From assembly GCA_905616385.1 (NCBI GenBank), contig CAJQSS010000034.1, positions 1 to 32,297 of the forward strand: DNA of 32,297 bases, read 5' to 3'. Each line of letters opens with the position of its first letter. The stretch's first letter is position 1. Below are positions 3 through 24,938 of this stretch, in pieces. The stretch is from an uncultured Candidatus Nitrosopumilus sp. (GTDB taxonomy: Archaea; Thermoproteota; Nitrososphaeria; Nitrososphaerales; Nitrosopumilaceae). The notes below the pieces were generated by a model. The model was not told where the DNA came from. It saw nothing but the letters and a program-made list of their open reading frames with translations, and ran no database searches. The position numbers and the translations under genes were made by a program.

Positions 3-230
3 TCATTCTCACCATACATTGCAGATATGCAACGTGAAAATCCAATGTTTAAAGAAGTAGTAAAACTTGGTTTGACACCAATGCTATCATCATTGGCAAT
101 TATGGAAAATGCAGACTCTGAATCTGAAGTTCTAGGACTTGGATTATCAGTGATTGCACTAAACTTGGGAATGTATATTGGACTTCCAGCATTTGGAATC
201 ATTAAAGTAATTCAACTTAGAAGAAATTAA
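3..230 (+). CDS. C-terminal end of a CFI-box secreted/membrane protein (5' part outside window)
   Basis: The reading frame is open from the first bases and enters the window in mid-gene. The first Met at 27 is internal, because the codons before it (S-F-S-P-Y-I-A-D) match the same stretch of the 569-aa CFI-box protein at 7770-9479. The visible 75 residues end in a hydrophobic segment (LGLGLSVIALNLGMYIGLPA) and a short basic tail, so the C-terminus is probably membrane anchored. It is therefore the truncated end of a paralogue whose N-terminal signal peptide and CFI motif lie upstream of the window. An 83-bp stretch (78-160) is identical, in inverted orientation, to 7840-7922. The function of this thaumarchaeal family is not known to me. 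Confidence 0.75.
   Translation, partial: SFSPYIADMQRENPMFKEVVKLGLTPMLSSLAIMENADSESEVLGLGLSVIALNLGMYIGLPAFGIIKVIQLRRN
78..160. repeat. Left copy of an 83-bp perfect inverted repeat
   Basis: This stretch is identical base for base to the reverse complement of 7840-7922. It lies within the coding sequence for the CFI-box C-terminus. Similarity continues at lower identity on both sides, to about 3-215. Confidence 0.9.
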
Positions 231-6675: not shown

Positions 6676-7713
6676 CTAAAATCTTGGAACGACTCTAGAT
6701 TTTGCAGTTACTGCTACGATGCTGATGATTGCTACAGCTAGTACCATCATGGCAATTGTACCAAACTCTGGAACTACTTGTGCTGTTGTAACTTGACCTA
6801 CTGGTCCAGTCCAATCATCACTATTACCTGGTGCACCAATTCCTAAAGATTCTACTTTAACATTTATTGGATTATCATCAGAACCAACTGCATCTATTTG
6901 ATGAGTTGCAATGTTTTCCATAGAATGTAAACCAGTTTCTTCAAAAACTACTTCACCATTTTGTGTTGCAGTCATATCGTAGTTAACGTGTAATTCACTG
7001 AATTCAAGTTCAATTTGAGTTCCACCCATTACTTCTGAGTAGGAAATCATTACCATTAACTCTACATCTTCTGCTTCTGCTGCTGCTGCGTCTGCTAATG
7101 CTTGTTCAGCTGCTTCGGCATCTGCTAATGCTGCTGCGTCTGCTAATGCTTGTTCAGCTGCTTCTGCTTCTGCTAATGCTGCTGCGTCTGCTAATGCTTG
7201 TTCAGCTGCTTCGGCATCTGCTAATGCTTGTGCTGCTTCTGCATCTGCTGCTTCTGCATCTGCTAATGCTTGTGCTGCTTCTGCATCTGCTAATGCTTGT
7301 GCTGCTGCTTCTTCTGCATGTACATCTTGTACTATAATCACACCATACATGTATGGATGCAATGAACAATAGAATGGAACTTCACCTGTATTTGCTGGTG
7401 TCCATTCTCCAGATTCACCTGCGTTCAAAATACCAGTATCAAATACTTCAGTTGGATTTTGTACAAATCCGTCCATAGTTCCTGATGTAAATGAATGAAA
7501 TCCTACTGGGTTTGAGAATATTACTTTTGAACCAATTTCAACTATTGAAGTAGATTCAACATAACATTCTGGTTCACAAGCTGGATTCATAGCATCTTCT
7601 GATGTAGAGATTGTGACTTCTGGATGATCTGCAAAAGCAGCTGGTGCCATTGAGGCCATACCTGCTGCGATAGCAAATAATACAAAGATTGAGCTTATTG
7701 CTTTAGTCTTCAT
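6676..7713 (-). CDS. Plastocyanin-like blue copper protein with Ala-rich repeat linker and PEFG C-terminal signal
   Basis: The protein is 345 aa, with a signal peptide to about residue 28. Residues 30-130 form a cupredoxin domain with a type 1 copper set: H73 in GFHSF, then C116, H119 and M122 in YCSLHPYM. C46 and C50 could form a disulfide. Residues about 133-216 are a low-complexity repeat (QALADAEAA and longer EQALADAAALA units). A second beta-rich domain (about 217-310) follows, then the archaeal PEFG sorting signal (315-318), a hydrophobic helix and a basic tail. It is probably an electron carrier or copper store fixed to the cell surface by an archaeosortase-type reaction. Many such copper proteins serve ammonia-oxidising archaea in place of cytochromes. 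A TATA-like box (TTTTTATGG, minus strand, 7739-7747) lies upstream. Confidence 0.88.
   Translation of the reverse strand: MKTKAISSIFVLFAIAAGMASMAPAAFADHPEVTISTSEDAMNPACEPECYVESTSIVEIGSKVIFSNPVGFHSFTSGTMDGFVQNPTEVFDTGILNAGESGEWTPANTGEVPFYCSLHPYMYGVIIVQDVHAEEAAAQALADAEAAQALADAEAADAEAAQALADAEAAEQALADAAALAEAEAAEQALADAAALADAEAAEQALADAAAAEAEDVELMVMISYSEVMGGTQIELEFSELHVNYDMTATQNGEVVFEETGLHSMENIATHQIDAVGSDDNPINVKVESLGIGAPGNSDDWTGPVGQVTTAQVVPEFGTIAMMVLAVAIISIVAVTAKSRVVPRF
7066..7317 (-). repeat. In-frame repeats encoding the Ala/Glu/Asp-rich linker
   Basis: About 250 bp of imperfect tandem repeats encode residues 133-216 of the plastocyanin-like protein. The 3' half has units of 48 bp (16 residues) and the 5' half has units of about 27 bp (9 residues). 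Both share the QALADA core, so the array probably grew by slippage or unequal crossing over and may vary in length between strains. Confidence 0.8.
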
Positions 7714-7769: not shown

Positions 7770-9479
7770 CTAATTCTTTCTAATTTGGTATAACTTTAAA
7801 ATTCCAAATGCTGGAAGTCCGATATACATTCCCAAATTAAGTGCAATCACTGATAATCCAAGTCCTAGAACTTCAGATTCAGAGTCTGCATTTTCCATAA
7901 TTGCCAATGATGATAGCATTGGAGTCAATCCAGCTTTTACAATTTCTTTAAACATTGGACTTTCACGTTCCATGTCTGCAATTGTTGGTGAGAATGAATA
8001 GTAAATGTCATTGAATGTATTCATGAAAGATTTTCCAGATTCTGTATTCATTAATTGGTTGTCACGAATTTCTCTAAGTAATTGAACTTGCGGAGATAAT
8101 TCTGAACCATAAGCTGCTGTTGCAATTAGACAACCGCCGCCTTCTTCAGTAGATTTATCTTCAGAGGATTCATCTACAGGAGTTAAAACTTTAGATCCAG
8201 GTACAACAACTAAAGCAAATTCAGTTTCTTGTCCAGTATTTCTAATATTTTCAAATTTAATTATTGTAGGTCCTGTTTGATCTTCAGCAAATGTAAATTT
8301 TTCAAAATCTCCTCCAACTGCGGCATTACCAGAAACACGATGAATTTCTTCATTATTTTGAATAATTACAAATGTATAATCAGAAAGTCTCATAGGTGAA
8401 TCAGTATAACTATCTCGAATAGTAAAAACAAAATTTGTTGGAACTCCAGATTCAATATCTTTAGGATCCCATGCAAGATTTAGTTTGAATTCTTCACTTG
8501 CAGTATAAGCAATTAATGGGAATTTAGCTTCTTCACTTGCAGATAATTTAAACACAATATTATCTGGTAGTGGTTCTTCTGATGCTCTCATTTCATTTTT
8601 TAAATATCTTAAATGATCTTGCAACAAAACAAAATGAACAGTACGTTCATCATCATAGGTATAATCATCAACGGTTACTGAAGATTTGAATAATTTGATT
8701 CCATTTACAGAACCAAGATAGCTAGGGCTCAAAAATTCAACAAAATCTTTTGGAAAATGTGTCTCAACATGTACAACAGATACGTGAGACATTTGACTCT
8801 CACTCCAATCAAATGGCATCTCAAATGTTACTTCTTTAGCCTCAGAATTATAGTAGAAATTAGATACTGAATCAAAATAGGATTTTGTACTAAATTCTAC
8901 ATCTTCATTATTTTGATCTTTTTGTGGATGTGATACAGTATCAACTATGGTTAAATCAGCATTGTACACACCAGAATTTTCTATAATATTCGTAGGTTCA
9001 TCAATCGTTCGTACCTCAATTTCAAAAGTATACAGTCCACCTGAATTAAACAAAGGACCAGTAATTTCTACAAGATTTGAATCAGTTCCATACCAAGCTC
9101 CAAGTAAAGAATCTTGTTCGCCATAAATTATAATTTCCTTATCATCTGTTGGTGTGACCATAATTGGTAAAACTCCATCTTCAGCAAAAAAGTAATTTCG
9201 TAAAATCATTTCGTTATTGTGAAATATACCAATGAGAAATGTAACATTCTTGGCAGTTTCATCAGTTTCAGTATCTGTTGCAGTGATTGTAATTTGTTCT
9301 TGATCATTTTCAAAATACATTGGCATTTCTACTGAAATGGATATTTGTTTTTCTTGAATACTAATTGAAGAAATTGTATCAATTCCTAAACCATGTCCAT
9401 AAACACTACTTGCTGGAAAAAGCAAGCAAAAAATTATTGAAAAAATTAAAAGTTTCTTTAAAGACAATGTTATTCTCAA
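7770..9479 (-). CDS. Secreted CFI-box C-terminal-domain protein
   Basis: This 569-aa protein has a signal peptide of about 28 residues, so the mature form begins near GHGLGID. A long beta-rich extracellular region (about 30-430) follows, and then an acidic Ser/Glu linker. At 450 the sequence CLIATAAYGSE matches the CFI-box motif (usually CFIATAAYG), followed by LREIRDNQL and a C-terminal hydrophobic helix with a basic end. The conserved Cys suggests lipid or other covalent processing, but this is inference. The C-terminal 75 residues are almost identical to the truncated protein at 3-230. It lies upstream of the plastocyanin-like gene on the same strand with a 56-bp gap. The extracellular part resembles nothing I recognise. 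Confidence 0.78.
   Translation of the reverse strand: MRITLSLKKLLIFSIIFCLLFPASSVYGHGLGIDTISSISIQEKQISISVEMPMYFENDQEQITITATDTETDETAKNVTFLIGIFHNNEMILRNYFFAEDGVLPIMVTPTDDKEIIIYGEQDSLLGAWYGTDSNLVEITGPLFNSGGLYTFEIEVRTIDEPTNIIENSGVYNADLTIVDTVSHPQKDQNNEDVEFSTKSYFDSVSNFYYNSEAKEVTFEMPFDWSESQMSHVSVVHVETHFPKDFVEFLSPSYLGSVNGIKLFKSSVTVDDYTYDDERTVHFVLLQDHLRYLKNEMRASEEPLPDNIVFKLSASEEAKFPLIAYTASEEFKLNLAWDPKDIESGVPTNFVFTIRDSYTDSPMRLSDYTFVIIQNNEEIHRVSGNAAVGGDFEKFTFAEDQTGPTIIKFENIRNTGQETEFALVVVPGSKVLTPVDESSEDKSTEEGGGCLIATAAYGSELSPQVQLLREIRDNQLMNTESGKSFMNTFNDIYYSFSPTIADMERESPMFKEIVKAGLTPMLSSLAIMENADSESEVLGLGLSVIALNLGMYIGLPAFGILKLYQIRKN
7840..7922. repeat. Right copy of an 83-bp perfect inverted repeat
   Basis: This is the reverse complement of 78-160, inside the 569-aa CFI-box gene. 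The two copies bracket the metal-handling region. Confidence 0.9.
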
Positions 9480-12891: not shown

Positions 12892-13206
12892 CTATTGTCC
12901 TAAGATGATAAACATCATAACTATACCGTAGATTGCAATTGATTCAACCATACCTACGAAGATGAATACCTTAGACTGCAAAGCAGGATTCTCACTAATT
13001 ACTGCAAGACCTGCAGCACCTACTTGGCCTAAACCTACACCAGCACCACCGGCTGCAACACCAAATGCAATGCCAGCACCAATTAATTTAGATCCATCAC
13101 TCATACCACTGGCAGCTCCTTCTTCTGCAGCATATGCTACATCAGTAAGACCTGCAGCAACAAAAGTAAATGCCGCTACTAATAATAATAAAACAACAGG
13201 TTTCAT
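12892..13206 (-). CDS. atpK: A-type ATP synthase proteolipid subunit K
   Basis: This 104-aa subunit forms the membrane rotor ring that carries protons (or sodium). An N-terminal signal-like helix (1-27, ending AYA) is followed by two transmembrane helices. The first is Gly/Ala-rich (LIGAGIAFGVAAGGAGVGLG). The second contains the ion-binding glutamate E88 in FVGMVESIAIYG. A single hairpin with one carboxylate is the simple c-subunit form. It is last in the minus-strand ATPase cluster, about 50 bp after the duplicated small ORFs, and it has its own TATA-like box. This could supply the extra copies the ring needs. Base composition is richer in G+C than its surroundings, which suggests high expression. 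Confidence 0.93.
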   Translation of the reverse strand: MKPVVLLLLVAAFTFVAAGLTDVAYAAEEGAASGMSDGSKLIGAGIAFGVAAGGAGVGLGQVGAAGLAVISENPALQSKVFIFVGMVESIAIYGIVMMFIILGQ

Positions 13207-13256: not shown

Positions 13257-13388
13257 CTAAATTTTATCAAGTGTTTTCTTTTTAAATAATGTCAAATCAT
13301 TTTGAATTGACTTAATAAAATTATCAAGATCTTTATCTATTACGATCTTAGAATTTTCAACTAATTTTTTTATTTCTTCTTTTGCCAT
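13257..13388 (-). CDS. 43-aa small ORF, copy a, in the ATPase operon
   Basis: Reading from the ATG at 13388 this encodes 43 residues beginning MAKEEIKKLVENSKIVIDK and ending in KKKTLDKI. It is Lys/Asp/Glu-rich, and a single amphipathic helix or coiled-coil is likely. Its ATG follows directly on the TAG of copy b, and the two copies differ by one base (E5 here, K5 in copy b). Its position between subunits D and K suggests an ATPase-associated peptide, for example a short peripheral-stalk-like helix, but no family is recognised. The perfect coding-length duplication (132 bp each) supports it being a real gene. Confidence 0.65.
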   Translation of the reverse strand: MAKEEIKKLVENSKIVIDKDLDNFIKSIQNDLTLFKKKTLDKI

Positions 13389-13520
13389 CTAAATTTTATC
13401 AAGTGTTTTCTTTTTAAATAATGTCAAATCATTTTGAATTGACTTAATAAAATTATCAAGATCTTTATCTATTACGATCTTAGAATTTTCAACTAATTTT
13501 TTTATTTTTTCTTTTGCCAT
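13389..13520 (-). CDS. 43-aa small ORF, copy b, translationally coupled to subunit D
   Basis: The ATG at 13520 shares its A with the TAA stop of subunit D (TAATG), a classic coupling arrangement. The 43-residue product is the same as copy a except K5 replaces E5. It has a helix-forming, highly charged composition with hydrophobic residues at roughly heptad spacing. Copy a follows immediately after its stop. The function is unknown. Because the ancestral A-type ATPase needs a second peripheral-stalk subunit (H/G) and none is visible here, a shortened stalk helix is one idea, with little support beyond position. Confidence 0.65.
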   Translation of the reverse strand: MAKEKIKKLVENSKIVIDKDLDNFIKSIQNDLTLFKKKTLDKI

Positions 13521-14152
13521 TATTTTCTACTTTCCATTTTAGCTTTCACTTTTTTTAACTTTGCGAATTCTTCTCTTTCTCTTTCTTCAAGAGTAGATAG
13601 AATAAATCTAATTTTTTGTTGATATTGAGGAATAATTACATTTTCTAGTGCATTTAGAAGTTTTTGTGTTTTTTCTAGTGCTTTTGCAAGACTAAAAATA
13701 GAATTCTCATATTCTGCTGCTTTACAAATTTTAGGCATTAATTCTTTGATTTGTTTTGCTGCTCTATCAATTGAAGAATTTGTATCTGCAAATCCATAAG
13801 GCATTGATTTTGTATCTTTTTCAGTGACTGAAAGTGCTGGAATTTTAACATCAACCACTCTTCGTACATGTACATCTACTTCCATAACTGGAGGTGTGGA
13901 TTCAGCAACAGAATCAACAGTGTTAGTTCCTAATGCCAAATATGCCTCATTAACTGATTTGTAAATGTCTTGTAAAGGATCCCAAATTCCACCTCTTGCT
14001 TTTGAAGCTTCTTCAATCATCTCTTCAATATTTTTTAACAAAACTTTACGTTTATCATCTAAAATTCCTTGTACCATTGTAGCAACTTGACTTGATTTTT
14101 TATATTTGAAAAGTTCAATTTTTGTGGCAGCAACATTTTGTCCAAATGACAT
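13520..14152 (-). CDS. atpD: A-type ATP synthase subunit D
   Basis: This 210-aa subunit is the central rotor shaft that links the catalytic A3B3 head to the membrane ring. It is largely two long helices: an N-terminal one (ATKIELFKYKKSSQVATMVQ), and a C-terminal one (ENVIIPQYQQKIRFILSTLE) carrying the IPQ motif seen in the family. The middle is a beta/loop segment. The length is typical of 200-220 aa. It starts 4 bp after subunit B and its stop overlaps the start of the 43-aa ORF by one base, so translation is tightly coupled along the operon. Confidence 0.92.
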   Translation of the reverse strand: MSFGQNVAATKIELFKYKKSSQVATMVQGILDDKRKVLLKNIEEMIEEASKARGGIWDPLQDIYKSVNEAYLALGTNTVDSVAESTPPVMEVDVHVRRVVDVKIPALSVTEKDTKSMPYGFADTNSSIDRAAKQIKELMPKICKAAEYENSIFSLAKALEKTQKLLNALENVIIPQYQQKIRFILSTLEEREREEFAKLKKVKAKMESRK

Positions 14153-14156
14153 TCTG

Positions 14157-15542
14157 TTATTCTCCCTGATAATATTGATCTACGTACTTATCTTTAATTT
14201 TAGTAATTTCATTCTTTGGTAATTTTGAGACAATCTTCCATAAGATAGCAAGTGTTTCTTCAATTGTTCTATTCTCATCAGTTGCTTGTGTAAGGAATTC
14301 TTTTTCAAAGACATCACCAACATCCATGTATTTCAAATCAATTTCAGTTAATCCTGCTTTACCAACAATTCCTGCTAATGCTCTTACTTCTTGTGCTCTA
14401 GAATATGCATCATAAACTTGGTTAGCAACTTCAGCATGATCTTCTCTTGTACTGCCTTCACCAATTCCATCTTTCATCAATCTACTAAGACTCATCAAAA
14501 TATTGATTGGCGGATAAACTCCTTGTCTAAATAAATCTCTACCAACTACTATTTGACCTTCTGTAATGTAACCAGTAAGATCAGGGATTGGGTGAGTGAT
14601 ATCATCAGATGGCATTGATAAAATTGGAATTTGTGTAACACTTCCTTTTCTTCCATTAAGTTTGCCTGCTCTTTCATAAAGTGTTGAAAGGTCAGTGTAA
14701 AGATAACCAGGATATCCTTTTCTTCCAGGAACTTCCTCTCTTGCTGCACTAATTTCTCTTAGTGCTTCAGCATAGTTTGTCATATCAGTAAGAATAACTA
14801 AGACGTGCATTCCTAATTCAAATGCCAAATATTCAGCGACAGTTAATGCTACACGTGGGGTGATAATTCTTTCAATTGCAGGATCATCTGCTGTATTCAA
14901 AAATAGAACACTTCTTTTTAGTGCACCAGATTCTTCTAGACTTCTTCTGAAATATTCTGCTTCACTGTATTGAACACCAATTGCTGCAAAAACTACAGCA
15001 AAATCATCATTAGTGCCAACTACTGATGCTTGTCTTGCAATTTGTGCTGCAAGTAAATTATGAGACATACCAGAACCTGAAAAGATTGGAAGTTTTTGTC
15101 CTCTTACAAGAGTAATCAATCCATCAATTACAGATACGCCAGTTTGAATGAAATCTTTTGGATATTCACGTTGTTCTGGATTCATTGGTTCACCGTTAAT
15201 ATCAATAAATTTATCAGCAATTGGATCAGGTAATCCATCTTTTGGTCTTCCTAATCCATCAAAGACTCTACCAAGTACTTCTTTAGATACTGGCATTTCC
15301 ATAACTTTTCCAACAAATTTAGCGCTAGTTCCAGAGATAGATAATCCGGTAGTTCCTTCAAAGACTTGAACAATTGCTTTACCATTACCAACTTCGAGAA
15401 CTTTACCCAATCTTCTTTCACCCTCAGTAGTTTCAATTTCTACAAGTTCATCAAATGCTGCGTTATCAACATCATCAACAACAACTAGAGGTCCTTTAAT
15501 TTCAGCAATCTTGCTGTATTGAACTCCGCCTTTAGTGGTCAA
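14157..15542 (-). CDS. atpB: A-type ATP synthase subunit B (non-catalytic)
   Basis: This 461-aa subunit alternates with A in the head and holds a regulatory, non-catalytic nucleotide site. [19 protein letters not shown] replaces the P-loop, as expected for archaeal B subunits. [52 protein letters not shown] and [15 protein letters not shown] are family-typical blocks. The C-terminus is helical ([20 protein letters not shown]). Its start overlaps the end of subunit A by 4 bp (15539-15542) and its stop is 4 bp before subunit D. The length is normal. Confidence 0.96.
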
Positions 15543-17317
15543 TTTGTTACCTTCACTCCTGAAATATTTTTGAATTGTTCTTTCATATCGTTTTCTAATT
15601 TATCGAGTTTAGGCATTTCATCATCTTTGATATCCATTCTTGCTTTAAGTAATGATGTGACAACAGGTAATTCACGAATTGAAGCTAGTGGTGTGCCTTC
15701 CTTAAGTGATTGTTGACCTAGTTTATAGAAATCTACAACTAATTTCAATAATTTGAATTGTTTTTCTGGACTACAGTATGTATCAACATCATCAAATGAG
15801 TTTTGTTGGAGTAGACCAATTTTTACCATTCTTGCAATTTCTAAGATTAATTTTTCCTCATCAGGTAATGCATCAGGACCTAAGAGTTTTACAATTTCTT
15901 TTAGAGTATCTTCTCTTTGTAAAATTCCATAAGCTTCATTTCTAATACTAAACCAATCTTCACTAATATTTTCACCCCACCATTTTGCAATATCACCAAG
16001 ATAACCAGAATAACTGTTCATCCAGTTAATTGATGGGTAGTGTCTAGAGTAGGCAAGTTTTGCATCTAATGCCCAGAAAGTTTTGATAAATCTCATTGTG
16101 TGAGTTGTTACTGGTTCTGTAAAGTCACCACCTGATGGAGATACAGCACCAATCAAAGTAACTGAACCATCACGGTCTGGACTTCCAGCTGCTCTAACAC
16201 GACCTGCTCTTTCATAAAATTCTGCTAATCTTGATGCAAGATATGATGGATAACCTTCTTCTGCTGGCATCTCTTCTAATCTACCACTCATTTCTCTGAG
16301 TGCTTCAGCCCATCTACTTGTAGAATCTGCTACAAGAACAACGTCTTTACCCATATCTCTATAATATTCTGCAATTGTTACTCCAGTGTAGATACTTGCT
16401 TCCCTTGCTGCTACTGGCATGTTACTTGTATTTGCAACAAGTACAGTTCTATCCATAAGTGGTTTTCCACTACGTGGATCTTTAAGATGTGGAAATTCAA
16501 CTAATACCTCAGTCATTTCATTTCCTCTTTCACCACAACCAATGTAAACAACAACTTGTGAATCAGCCCATTTTGCAATTTGGTGCAATGTAACAGTTTT
16601 TCCTGTTCCAAATGCTCCAGGAATTGAACCAGTTCCACCTTTAGCAATTGGGAAGAATGTATCAATTACACGTTGTCCAGTAAGTAATGGAACTGTTGCA
16701 TCATATCTCTTAAGATATGGACGTGGTTTTCTTACAGGCCATCTATGATACATTTTGAGTGGAACGTTTTGTCCGTCTTTCTCAACTGTTGCTAATTCAG
16801 TTTCTAAATTATAATCTCCTTCTGAAACAAGATTTGAAATTTTTCCACCTGGATGATTTGGTGGAACCATGATAGAGTGTTCAATAAGATCTGTTTCTTG
16901 TACAGTTCCAATTACATTACCTGGTAAAACTTCATCACCATTACTTGCAGTTGGGACAAAGTGGTATTTCTTAACCATGTCAACTGGAGTAGTTGTAATA
17001 CCTCTACCGATAAAGGAACCAGATGCTTTTGATAATTCTTTTAGTGGTCTTTGAATTCCGTCATAAAGTTGTCCAATAATTCCTGGACCTAATAATACAC
17101 TGAGTGGGTTTCCAGTTCCAACTACAGGTTCACCTGGTTTTAATCCACTTGTAGACTCATAAACTTGAATAAATGCAACATCTCCAGTTAGTCGAATAAC
17201 TTCACCTACTAATTTTGAATTTCCAACTGAGACGGTTTCGTACATTTTAGCATCAGACATACCGTCTGCTCGAACTGCTGGACCGCTTACCCATACAATT
17301 CTGCCTTGTGCTGTCAT
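15539..17317 (-). CDS. atpA: A-type ATP synthase subunit A (catalytic)
   Basis: This 592-aa catalytic subunit makes ATP in the A1 head. The Walker A loop GAFGTGKT is at 234-241, the Walker B/arm is [20 protein letters not shown], and the family-specific non-homologous insert lies at about 115-195. [19 protein letters not shown] and [15 protein letters not shown] are also typical. No intein is seen near the P-loop, and the length is normal for archaea. It follows subunit E after one base and overlaps subunit B by 4 bp. Confidence 0.97.
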
Positions 17318-17318
17318 C

Positions 17319-17900
17319 TTATTCTTTTACTCCGAATTTTGATGCAATTTCTTTCCTAATTAAAGGCTTTAAACGCTCAATTTTGGCATCAATGGTATTA
17401 TCGAATTTCATAGCTCCCTCCTTTGATTCAATTTTAACACCGCCAATACAATCAATAATTTCAGAAGATAATTCAGATCCAGGAAAATTTGATAGAGATG
17501 ATTGAACTACATCTTTGTCTTTAGCATTTGTATATACTTTAACTTTAGTAGTTCCCAAAATTTTAGTTGATTCTTGCAAAAGAGAATTAATGAGATTTGA
17601 GTAATCATTATTGCGATCCGAATTTGTAATTTGTTCTAATGCTGTTGTGAACACCCGATTAACTGATGCTTCTAATGCTAAAAGTTGTTTATTTCTGGCT
17701 TCAATATCAGAACCGCCAATGATTTGTTTTTCAATTTTATCTGCCTCTTTTTTACCATCTGAGAGAATTTTATCATATTCAGATTCTAATGTAGCGATAG
17801 AATCATCAAGATTTTGTTTAAAGTTTAATCCGGCATCTTTGAGATCAGATAATACCTGTTTCTCAGATTTATTGAGAATTTTGTCAATAGTTTGCTCCAT
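17319..17900 (-). CDS. atpE: A-type ATP synthase subunit E
   Basis: This subunit of about 193 aa is the peripheral stalk that holds the head still. The N-terminal part is a long charged helix ([20 protein letters not shown] and on to about residue 80). The C-terminal globular domain includes the GGVKIES strand and the final [15 protein letters not shown] helix, as in V/A-type E subunits. An in-frame TTG at 17918 would add six residues; I prefer the ATG at 17900 because leaderless messages rarely begin with TTG. It is the first gene of the minus-strand ATPase operon and is divergent from subunit I. Confidence 0.9.
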
Positions 17901-17942
17901 TGTTGATTTTGATCCCAAGATATGTTGAAGCCAATAGAATGT

Positions 17943-18042: not shown

Positions 18043-20145
18043 GTGGCTGTCGCAGATCTTTTAATGGGAAGTGTCATACTTCCAAGAACAGACTCACCAA
18101 GTCTCATATCACGTCTTACTGAGTTTGAATGGTTTCATAAAATGGAAATGAATAATGAAACAGTAACTCCTGAAATTGATGATCTCCTTTTACGCGCACA
18201 AAAATCATTCCAATTTATTGAAGATGTCATAAAAGGACTGAATATTCCTCTACGAGTTGGAATTATGGAGATACTTTTCAAAGGTACTGTGATTAAAAAG
18301 AAAAAATATAATGTTGATGAAATTGAAAATATGATCAGTGATCTGGAACAAGTTCCAGAATTTCTTACTAATGCAGCAAAGTCATTAGAAGAGAATGTAA
18401 AAATTAATCATTCTTTAGAAGAATTCAAAGCATTAAAAGAAACGTTAGAAGTTGCAAATAATCTTAAAATTGATTTAACTGGTTTTGGTTCTACAAAATA
18501 TTTTTATTCAAATCTATTTATCATTAATTCCTCTGATTATGGTGAAATTGAAAGAACATTAGAAGAAATACCAATTTTCAAATATGATTTAGAATCTAAA
18601 GAAAAATCAGCTATCATAATAATTTCTGACAATGATGATTCTGATAAAATTCTTAAAACTATGAGAGCCCTTAATTCTAATCCATTTATGATACCTAAAG
18701 AATTTCCTCAAATTCCAAATGAAGCCTATTCTCTGGCAGAATCAAAGATAAAAGAACTGACAAAAAAACAAAAAGCAATTTCAAAAGAATTATCTTCTAT
18801 TACAAAAAAAATTCGTGGCGATATTTTAACAATGCATGAAAATGCATTAGTAGCAAAAGAAGTTCTTGAAACATTACGTAAACCAGGTGGTACCAAAAAT
18901 TTTGCAGTTATTCAAGGATATATCCCAAAGAAAATGGAGAAAAAATTCAAAGAAGTAACAAGTCAATGGACATCAATAACTGAAGAAGTAAAAGATAAAG
19001 ATACACTTGCAGAACTTCCAGTTTATTTGGATAATCCAAGGTGGGTTAAAACTTTTGAAGTAATTACTAATAGTCAGGGAATTCCCAAAAAAGGAGAATT
19101 TGATCCAACTTGGATGGTAGCACTCATGTGGCCAATATTTTATGGATTAATGTTTGCAGACGTAGGTCATGGATTATTATTAATGGGATTAGGATTATTA
19201 TTCAAATTCAAAGGACAAGGAAATTTATCAAGATGGGGAATGTTACTTGCAATATCTGGTGGAGCAGGTGCGCTTGCTGGAGTATTCCAAGGAGAAGTAT
19301 TTGGTTTCCACATTCAACACTTTGTAGGCTTTGAAATGTTGTTACATGAAGGTGGTCCACTTCATTCAATTTCATGGTTGATAGGATCTATCAGTGTAGC
19401 AGAATTAACATTTGATCAAGTAATTATGATTCTAAAAGTTTCATTATTCATAGGAGTTATTCATCTAGGATGGGCTTTCCTTTTGCGAATTCGTAACTTT
19501 GCAAAAAAGAAAGACAAAGATGGTCTAATCTTTGAAGCTATTCCAAATATGCTCATGTGGTTAGGAGTTTTCGGAGTAATGATGGGAGCAATAGGTTCTG
19601 GATATGATGTAATGAATATGTATTCCAAAATCCACGCAGAGGCTGTTCCTTGGGTTTCAGTTCTTGTTGGAGAATGGGCAGTTGTATGGATAGTTGTTAG
19701 AGTTTCAGTAATTCTCATACTTGCATGTGTTGTATTGATGATTATAGGCGGAATAAAACATAACAAAAAACATCCAGAAGATGGTGGAGATATGGTAAGT
19801 GTAATTATGGAAGTTTTACTTGGAAAAACCATTGAATGTCTAGCGCATTCAATTAGTTATGCCCGAATAGGAATTATGCTTTTAGTACATGCAGCTTTAT
19901 TGCTTACAGTTAACCAGGCCTTTGAATCATTGGGAGGACTTAGTTCGCCAATGGCCATGGTACTCATTATTGGGGGACAGATAGGAATTATGATGATTGA
20001 AGGTTTGATTGTTTACATACAGTCTCTAAGGCTTCACCTTTACGAATTCTTTACAAAATGGTATGATGGAGGTTCTCAACCATTCAAACAATTAGTTCCT
20101 GAAACAGTTTACAACTCTTATTCTTGGAAGAGTAAGAGAAAATAG
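18043..20145 (+). CDS. atpI: A-type ATP synthase subunit I (a-subunit, membrane stator)
   Basis: This 700-aa subunit forms the proton half-channels against the K ring. The N-terminal half (about 1-355) is a soluble helical and coiled-coil arm with Lys/Glu-rich stretches. The C-terminal half begins at PTWMVALMWPIFYGLMFADV near 353 and has seven to eight transmembrane helices. The essential arginine is probably R608 in SISYARIGIMLL. The blocks GLMFADVGHGLLLMGLG and GGQIGIMMIEGLIVYIQSLR are family-typical. The start is a GTG; an ATG at 18064 is a less likely alternative. It is transcribed divergently from atpE, with a 28-codon membrane peptide 20 bp downstream. Confidence 0.95.
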   Translation: MAVADLLMGSVILPRTDSPSLISRLTEFEWFHKMEMNNETVTPEIDDLLLRAQKSFQFIEDVIKGLNIPLRVGIMEILFKGTVIKKKKYNVDEIENMISDLEQVPEFLTNAAKSLEENVKINHSLEEFKALKETLEVANNLKIDLTGFGSTKYFYSNLFIINSSDYGEIERTLEEIPIFKYDLESKEKSAIIIISDNDDSDKILKTMRALNSNPFMIPKEFPQIPNEAYSLAESKIKELTKKQKAISKELSSITKKIRGDILTMHENALVAKEVLETLRKPGGTKNFAVIQGYIPKKMEKKFKEVTSQWTSITEEVKDKDTLAELPVYLDNPRWVKTFEVITNSQGIPKKGEFDPTWMVALMWPIFYGLMFADVGHGLLLMGLGLLFKFKGQGNLSRWGMLLAISGGAGALAGVFQGEVFGFHIQHFVGFEMLLHEGGPLHSISWLIGSISVAELTFDQVIMILKVSLFIGVIHLGWAFLLRIRNFAKKKDKDGLIFEAIPNMLMWLGVFGVMMGAIGSGYDVMNMYSKIHAEAVPWVSVLVGEWAVVWIVVRVSVILILACVVLMIIGGIKHNKKHPEDGGDMVSVIMEVLLGKTIECLAHSISYARIGIMLLVHAALLLTVNQAFESLGGLSSPMAMVLIIGGQIGIMMIEGLIVYIQSLRLHLYEFFTKWYDGGSQPFKQLVPETVYNSYSWKSKRK

Positions 20146-23598: not shown

Positions 23599-23659
23599 AA
23601 ATTGACTCCAATTTAGACCGCCAAACATTAAAATCAGTAAATCATCAAGATTGATCAAA

Positions 23660-24691
23660 ATGAGTGCTTCAAAAAATGTCTATGCATCTGTTAAATCATA
23701 TAGTAAAAGAGGGAAATTACTAAAAAAAGAGGATTTTCAAACTTTAGCAGAATCAAGAGATCTTGATGAATTAATGATTCGTATTAAAAATACAGTTTAC
23801 GCTGATGCAGTAGCTGAAGTAGAAAAACCATATACATCTCAAAACATTGAATCTGCCTTACGGAGTCATTTAGCTGATATTCATTATGAAATATCAAAAA
23901 CTGCTGGAGGTGGAATATTAGATGCTTATTATTTGAAATTTATCATATCCAATCTAAAACAAATTCTAAAAGGAAAAGTTTTAGGAAAAACTCAAGAAGA
24001 AATTGAAACTCACATTAATCTTCATGCGGAAGAATTAATTAAACAAAGAGATATTGTTATCAAAGCACTTGTTGCAAAAGACCTAGAAGAAACAGTTGCA
24101 AACTTGAGTCAAACAGAATTTGGTGAAGATATTGCAAAAGCTGCAGCGCTGTATGCAGATAAAAAAAGTCTCCAAATATTTGATACATATTTTGATAAAA
24201 TTTTGATGTCACGTCTTGTTAAGGCACTTAAATCTGGAGATATTGATGCCAGTAAATTAGTTAGTATGGATATTGATTTTTATAATATTTTAAGTGTAAT
24301 TAGAGGAAAATTTTGGGGACTAGATGAACAACAAATTCAAGATTTAATAATTATTCAATCTCCAGCTGCAAAAGAATTACTCCTAAGAATGATGTCAGTT
24401 GGTACAATTAGGGATGCATTTAATGAACTTTCTAACACAAAATATAGAGATTTAATTCCTCAATCTGAAAACGAATTAGATGCAATATCTGAATTTGAGA
24501 GATCTTTTGAATTAGCAATTTATCAGTCATCATTGAATTCATTTACCAAAATGTTTAGTTTAGCAACAACAGTAGGAATTACCAAATTAACTGCATTTGA
24601 AGTAAGAAATCTTGCAGCAATTGGATATGCAGTTGAACAAAAAATACCAACTGAAACTACAATGTCAAAATTAATCCTAGAAAAAGAATAG
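23660..24691 (+). CDS. atpC: A-type ATP synthase subunit C (d-like)
   Basis: This subunit of about 343 aa is the funnel-shaped socket that docks the central shaft on the K ring. It is almost entirely helical, with family-like stretches NVYASVKSYSKRGKLL at the start, DAYYLKFIISNLKQILKG near 95, and a C-terminal DAISEFERSFELAIYQS then GITKLTAFEVRNLAAIGYA, which resembles the conserved AE.NLR.I closing motif. The ATG at 23660 is preferred over the TTG at 23651. It is detached from the rest of the ATPase cluster by about 3.5 kb (rhodanese, amt and the possible winged-helix gene). A small membrane-protein gene follows 10 bp downstream. Confidence 0.9.
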   Translation: MSASKNVYASVKSYSKRGKLLKKEDFQTLAESRDLDELMIRIKNTVYADAVAEVEKPYTSQNIESALRSHLADIHYEISKTAGGGILDAYYLKFIISNLKQILKGKVLGKTQEEIETHINLHAEELIKQRDIVIKALVAKDLEETVANLSQTEFGEDIAKAAALYADKKSLQIFDTYFDKILMSRLVKALKSGDIDASKLVSMDIDFYNILSVIRGKFWGLDEQQIQDLIIIQSPAAKELLLRMMSVGTIRDAFNELSNTKYRDLIPQSENELDAISEFERSFELAIYQSSLNSFTKMFSLATTVGITKLTAFEVRNLAAIGYAVEQKIPTETTMSKLILEKE

Positions 24692-24701
24692 GAATTTTGA
24701 A

Positions 24702-24938
24702 ATGTTTAATTTTGGGAAGAAGAAAAATAATGTTTCTACGGAAGTTTTAATTAAATTAATCTGGGTAAGTTCATTTTTAGCAATGATTCTGACTTTACCC
24801 TCTTTAGGGTTATTTTTAGGAATTTATTATTTTACAGGAGAATTAATAGTTGGAGCAATAATTGGGTGCGTAGTACATTTTATTACTTTAGCATTTATAA
24901 GCAGAATCTCCAAATTTTTAACTAAAGTAATGAGTTAA
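24702..24938 (+). CDS. 78-aa membrane protein downstream of atpC
   Basis: The protein is 78 aa, with a basic N-terminus (FGKKKNN) and two transmembrane helices (about 18-45 and 47-68), and a basic C-terminal end. It starts 10 bp after atpC and is followed 33 bp later by the Cas4-like gene, so all three are probably one transcript. Size and topology are reminiscent of the bacterial AtpI/UncI helpers of c-ring assembly, but I see no sequence proof. It may equally be unrelated to the ATPase. Confidence 0.65.
   Translation: MFNFGKKKNNVSTEVLIKLIWVSSFLAMILTLPSLGLFLGIYYFTGELIVGAIIGCVVHFITLAFISRISKFLTKVMS

Follow-up and report, generated by a model that had tools for sequence, protein, structure and literature searches.

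A small conserved gene between atpD and atpK in the A-type ATP synthase operon of ammonia-oxidising archaea, recently doubled in one Nitrosopumilus lineage

Small genes following atpD in archaea

In Sulfolobus, the ATP synthase operon was reportedly described by Denda and colleagues in 1990 with the order delta-alpha-beta-gamma-epsilon-proteolipid. This order agrees with the one read here in a Sulfolobaceae-like family (f35; genome G179), F-E-A-B-D-epsilon-K with a divergent I, which is nearly the order found in Nitrosopumilus. The ORF that follows D in this family encodes 52-59 aa and matches PF08112 ('ATP synthase epsilon subunit'). When the genomes were searched with PF08112, matches over the cut-off were found only in this family and in the named control, Sulfolobus acidocaldarius. 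In Methanosarcina, the small ORF that follows ahaD (subunit D) encodes a hydrophilic protein, AhaG. It resembles the product described below in being encoded by a small ORF after D, but it is euryarchaeal and nothing points to a relation between the two.

The slot after D is patchily filled outside ammonia oxidisers and Sulfolobaceae: no small ORF directly follows D in families f28 (L113, L114, L115), f39 (L118, L119) and f66 (L120).

Ammonia-oxidising archaea are among the most abundant marine ammonia oxidisers. Most of them carry either an A-type ATP synthase or a horizontally acquired V-type-like ATPase. For the A-type enzyme, eight of the nine expected subunits are listed; H/G is the missing one (PMC6863869). 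Described here are a small gene of the A-type ATP synthase operon, conserved and hitherto without a family model and called P below, and a lineage in which this gene was recently doubled. Together with a candidate for H/G, P makes the open subunit question testable on two specific short genes, which may encode missing or extra subunits of this enzyme. The doubling itself is a minor curiosity.

The doubled gene of the window

The window is the whole stretch of DNA analysed (32,297 nt, from an uncultured Candidatus Nitrosopumilus sp.). The order on its minus strand is E-A-B-D-P-P-K; I is divergent and C lies further away (Table 1). The D and K neighbours given for the P pair in an earlier note on this DNA are confirmed by Pfam. 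Its statement that no H/G or F subunit is visible nearby is borne out: neither is present in the window.

Table 1. ATP synthase genes of the window and the H/G candidate encoded elsewhere in the same genome. Positions refer to the window unless a contig is named.
Feature	Position	Strand	Match or other support	Other loci
P copy 1 (K5), 43-aa ORF	13389..13520	(-)	start overlaps atpD stop (TAATG); slot and ORF conserved in relatives	
P copy 2 (E5, ancestral residue), 43-aa ORF	13257..13388	(-)	ATG abuts TAG of copy 1; tandem junction also in G053	
atpD (rotor subunit D), upstream of P and coupled to it in translation	13520..14152	(-)	PF01813 E=6e-52	
atpK (proteolipid / c-ring subunit), downstream of P	12892..13206	(-)	PF00137 E=5e-16	
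atpB	14157..15542	(-)	PF00006 and PF22919	
atpA	15539..17317	(-)	PF00006, PF16886	
atpE (peripheral stalk subunit E)	17319..17918	(-)	PF01991 E=7e-16	
atpI (subunit a/I), divergent	18043..20145	(+)	NF004434 E=7e-68	
atpC	23651..24691	(+)	PF01992 E=1e-52	
H/G candidate, 111-aa ORF	G000:C29:4465-4797 (L131 1966-2301)			L132-L148, L141, L270-L277

The two P units (window 13257-13520, minus strand) are 132 bp each, head-to-tail and adjacent, and identical at 131 of 132 positions. The single difference is in codon 5: AAA (K) in the atpD-proximal copy, GAA (E) in the second. K5 is the derived state. The TAG of copy 1 is directly joined to the ATG of copy 2 (TAGATG, same frame). No microhomology is read at the ends of the repeat, so that its unit spans exactly ATG to TAG. 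The gene had been called exactly duplicated: two complete 43-codon ORFs with their own ATG are indeed present, but owing to codon 5 (E5K) 'exactly' is one base too strong. The proposed coupling of the first ORF to atpD holds, the atpD stop overlapping the ATG of P in TAATG. Read-through of the inter-copy TAG, giving an 87-aa double helix, was considered and rejected: there is no evidence for read-through, and this reading is unnecessary because the relatives are single-copy.

Both P copies are found in full only in the window's own genome, among 95 genomes of the genus. The nearest genome (G053) is 99.2% identical to it over 900 bp downstream. A contig of G053 has its edge in an upstream copy, 32 nt inside the tail, followed by TAG/ATG and a second copy; this junction makes an assembly artefact unlikely. 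The next nearest genome, Nitrosopumilus RIS_SAG_24 (G017, L153), has one copy, with E5, and P is single-copy in all 80 named Nitrosopumilaceae loci. The duplication is restricted to the window's lineage. Codon 14 is AAG in both window copies vs AAA in the second copy of G053 and in G017. The shared AAG implies that the window copies either have a very recent common origin or have been homogenised.

The simplest view of the duplication is that it is young and may be neutral. An exact tandem duplication from ATG to TAG has given this lineage two coupled copies, and the only likely effect of this young event would be more P per transcript; most simply, the doubling adds dosage or is neutral. A recent, expression-raising duplication had been proposed. 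Recency and limitation to one lineage are supported by G053, the 95 genomes and the 80 loci; raised expression is without support here.

Some other ORFs of the window were recorded. Just after atpC, a 78-aa predicted membrane protein (24702-24938, plus strand) has no Pfam or NCBIfam match. A 345-aa secreted protein (6676-7713, minus strand) has in its middle a long Ala/Glu/Asp-rich repeat run (AEQALADA...). The ORFs at 27-230 (plus strand) and 7770-9479 (minus strand) have a near-identical C-terminal stretch (MLSSLAIMENADSESEVLGLGLSVIALNLGMYIGLPAFGI), which suggests that they are paralogues within the window.

Conservation of P and its occurrence with the A-type enzyme

An intact P ORF is found directly after D in 79 of 80 named Nitrosopumilaceae loci; the remaining locus is interrupted only by N's. 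The place between atpD and atpK is thus conserved, as is the ORF, whose absence from relatives or frameshifts in homologues had been named as signs of a non-coding duplication. Neither sign is seen: the homologues are intact. Random equivalent 21-nt slots contain the start of a 41-48 aa ATG ORF in 1.4% of cases; set against the 79 loci and the one with N's, this excludes a chance ORF. Measured from the end of the D stop, the P start in relatives falls between -8 and +2 nt (most frequently at -1), and the length of P among thaumarchaeal relatives is 37-48 aa. The median dN/dS at the Nitrosopumilaceae loci is ~0.22 for P vs 0.05 for D. P is a real protein-coding gene under purifying selection.

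In L158 (SAG AH-541-I17), P has lost 18 nt (six codons) in frame, in the middle of the helix, and encodes 37 aa; this is the sole internal length change seen. In L096 (G048), and likewise in L193, a 113-aa ORF lies between P and atpK, the P-K gap being ~805 bp; by eye, its predicted product resembles a HicB-type antitoxin.

The reading of P as a spurious ORF, or of the repeat as an assembly artefact, draws on the very short length of P, its lack of any family match and the incomplete draft state of the window's genome (60%). Against it stand the conservation of P, the purifying selection and the tandem junction seen again in a second genome, G053. Its probability is negligible, and for the coding status of P spuriousness is already refuted.

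P belongs to the A-type ATP synthase operon of ammonia-oxidising archaea. Across the order, the P profile is found in 9 of 9 A-type genomes vs 0 of 14 V-type-only genomes (Fisher p ~1e-6); eight of the nine positives supplied sequences to the search profile, so that the informative half is the absence from the V-type-only genomes, a class (n=14) defined by a weak sole D match (1e-14 to 1e-22) and whose operon was read only in G187. Seven genomes of the same genus without P are also without a complete A-type D, and the absence of P from them is therefore best read as an assembly gap. The V-type-like operon of G187 has the order K-E-C-F-A-B-D-H-I, with no P. The slot after D is occupied by H in the V-type operon and by P in the A-type operon. 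In G187, this H gene (L258 4295-4648) encodes 117 aa.

Form and possible roles of the product

The AlphaFold model of P is one helix that spans residues 2-42, with a mean pLDDT of 96. The hydrophobic residues of P recur every 96 degrees, which corresponds to 3.75 residues per turn and is the value of a quindecad. Peaks are at 96.5 degrees for Sulfolobus epsilon and at 97.5 degrees for both the H/G candidate and E (N-terminal helix); all four have little power at the heptad angle. Residues 6-68 of atpE have the periodicity of a right-handed coiled coil. Hendecad/quindecad right-handed coiled coils are a conserved feature of the peripheral stalks of rotary ATPases (PMC6131620), and from this feature and the 96-degree repeat of P its packing in the stator may be inferred. 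Values of 95-97.5 degrees are also found in 21% of the charged helices of a comparable kind at these loci (background control), so that the stator placement of P from its 96-degree repeat is only suggested. A search for a cryo-EM structure of a crenarchaeal ATP synthase gave nothing useful.

P and Sulfolobus epsilon share the slot between D and K, in (F-)E-A-B-D-x-K with I divergent in both. They are of a similar size class (52-59 aa vs 43), P being ~10 residues shorter. P is like epsilon in its charged, single-helix-like sequence and in its hydrophobic period of ~3.75 residues; in both, the start is near or overlaps the D stop. PF08112 gives no match to P, either with the window copies (E up to 1) or with 40 homologues (E up to 10). 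All other curated models also miss P, in keeping with the earlier view that it is unlike any nameable subunit. In hhalign, P and the epsilon profile align with a probability of 35% (E 4e-4); this score exceeds those of the reversed control and of 99 out of 100 column shuffles, but is weak, a window of D and the H/G candidate scoring similarly. Since PF08112 does not match and the profile score is near those of other coiled-coil profiles, it is claimed that P works like epsilon, not that it is a member of this family. Position and form argue for equivalence of P and epsilon; by sequence, the two may or may not be homologous. Homology of P to the ORFs following D in other Thermoproteota families (A3; hhalign E 7e-5) was rejected as evidence because the reversed alignment scored equally. 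When the profiles of P and epsilon were run against PDB sequences, only designed helices and other unrelated weak matches came up.

The preferred reading, with a probability of about 0.5, is that the A-type enzyme has P as a small subunit made of one helix, the positional counterpart of Sulfolobus epsilon, packed in the stator, and that the tandem copy of P is young. P is taken to be part of the A-type complex, and an extra stator helix is the leading candidate role on sequence grounds. P would be one basic helix of ~42 residues, translated by coupling from atpD. Its most likely place would be in the peripheral stalk, alongside the right-handed coiled coil made by E and an H/G-like partner, where it would stiffen the stalk or aid its assembly. 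Of the suggestion that P is a thaumarchaeal ATPase accessory or stalk component, the accessory part is supported by the conserved slot, the purifying selection and the occurrence only with the A-type enzyme; the stalk part is plausible from the helical periodicity.

Instead of being a stator helix, P could act on the rotor side, clamping or chaperoning D or linking it to the K ring. The products of neighbouring coupled genes are often in contact with each other; in each readable relative, the start of P either overlaps the atpD stop or abuts on it, K is next, and the profile score of the D window is near that of epsilon. However, the C-terminal helices of D peak at ~104-107 degrees and its N-terminal helices at 97-100 degrees, unlike P (96 degrees), and coupling by itself does not settle the binding partner; a rotor-side P is unlikely. 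It is likewise doubtful that P serves to regulate or assemble the A-type enzyme, in sub-stoichiometric or transient amounts, for instance as a helical inhibitor of ATP hydrolysis. Known ATPase inhibitors share the small, basic, single-helix form that is predicted for P, and P evolves faster than D (dN/dS 0.22 vs 0.05); obligate coupling to atpD and the strict one-to-one occurrence with the operon better fit a constitutive subunit.

P might also be a shortened form of the missing H/G subunit. Published comparisons report none among the A-type subunits of ammonia-oxidising archaea (PMC6863869), and the gene after D is that of H in the V-type-like operon of G187. P and the H/G subunits of A/V-type ATPases (TIGR02926, PRK08404, PF03179) are helical and charged; P may also share the right-handed, stalk-like coiled-coil periodicity of H/G, its 96-degree peak lying in the range of 21% of the background helices. 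P is 43 aa vs ~100-120 aa for H/G, and none of these three models matches it: searches of NCBIfam (E up to 0.1) and Pfam gave no match to P. The role would be better filled by a separate, conserved 111-aa coiled-coil ORF between the genes of NAC and a RuvC-like protein, traced by an H-model search; G068, G060 and G463 carry both this gene and P. The hint that P fills the missing role is weakened by this gene, and P is probably not H/G, an identity that now has a very small chance of being right.

The putative H/G gene

Matches of the 111-aa ORF to the H models are weak (up to 1.4e-7) and below the curated cut-offs. In several complete genomes of the genus, ~45-50 kb separate the ORF from the ATP synthase operon; G068 has the NAC cluster, the 111-aa ORF and F-E-A-B-D-P in one contiguous run. 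A search with its profile detects the ORF in A-type genomes and, except for one weak match (G089), in none of the V-type-only ones. In five V-type-only genomes, NAC and the RuvC-like gene have no such ORF between them. The NAC-linked protein is a better candidate than P for the unreported H/G.

P and the 111-aa gene are both absent where a V-type-like operon has replaced the A-type one. This natural experiment ties both genes to the A-type enzyme. The A-type enzyme may have two unlisted subunits, with P as an extra stator helix and the NAC-linked protein as H/G, although the odds are put at somewhat less than even. If true, the enzyme of the lineage with doubled P may hold two P variants or an altered dosage of P.

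In f69 (L121) and f66 (L120), two further families of Thermoproteota, a ~110-aa H-like coiled-coil ORF is found after K. An additional ORF following D (58 aa), lacking in f66, is present in f69.
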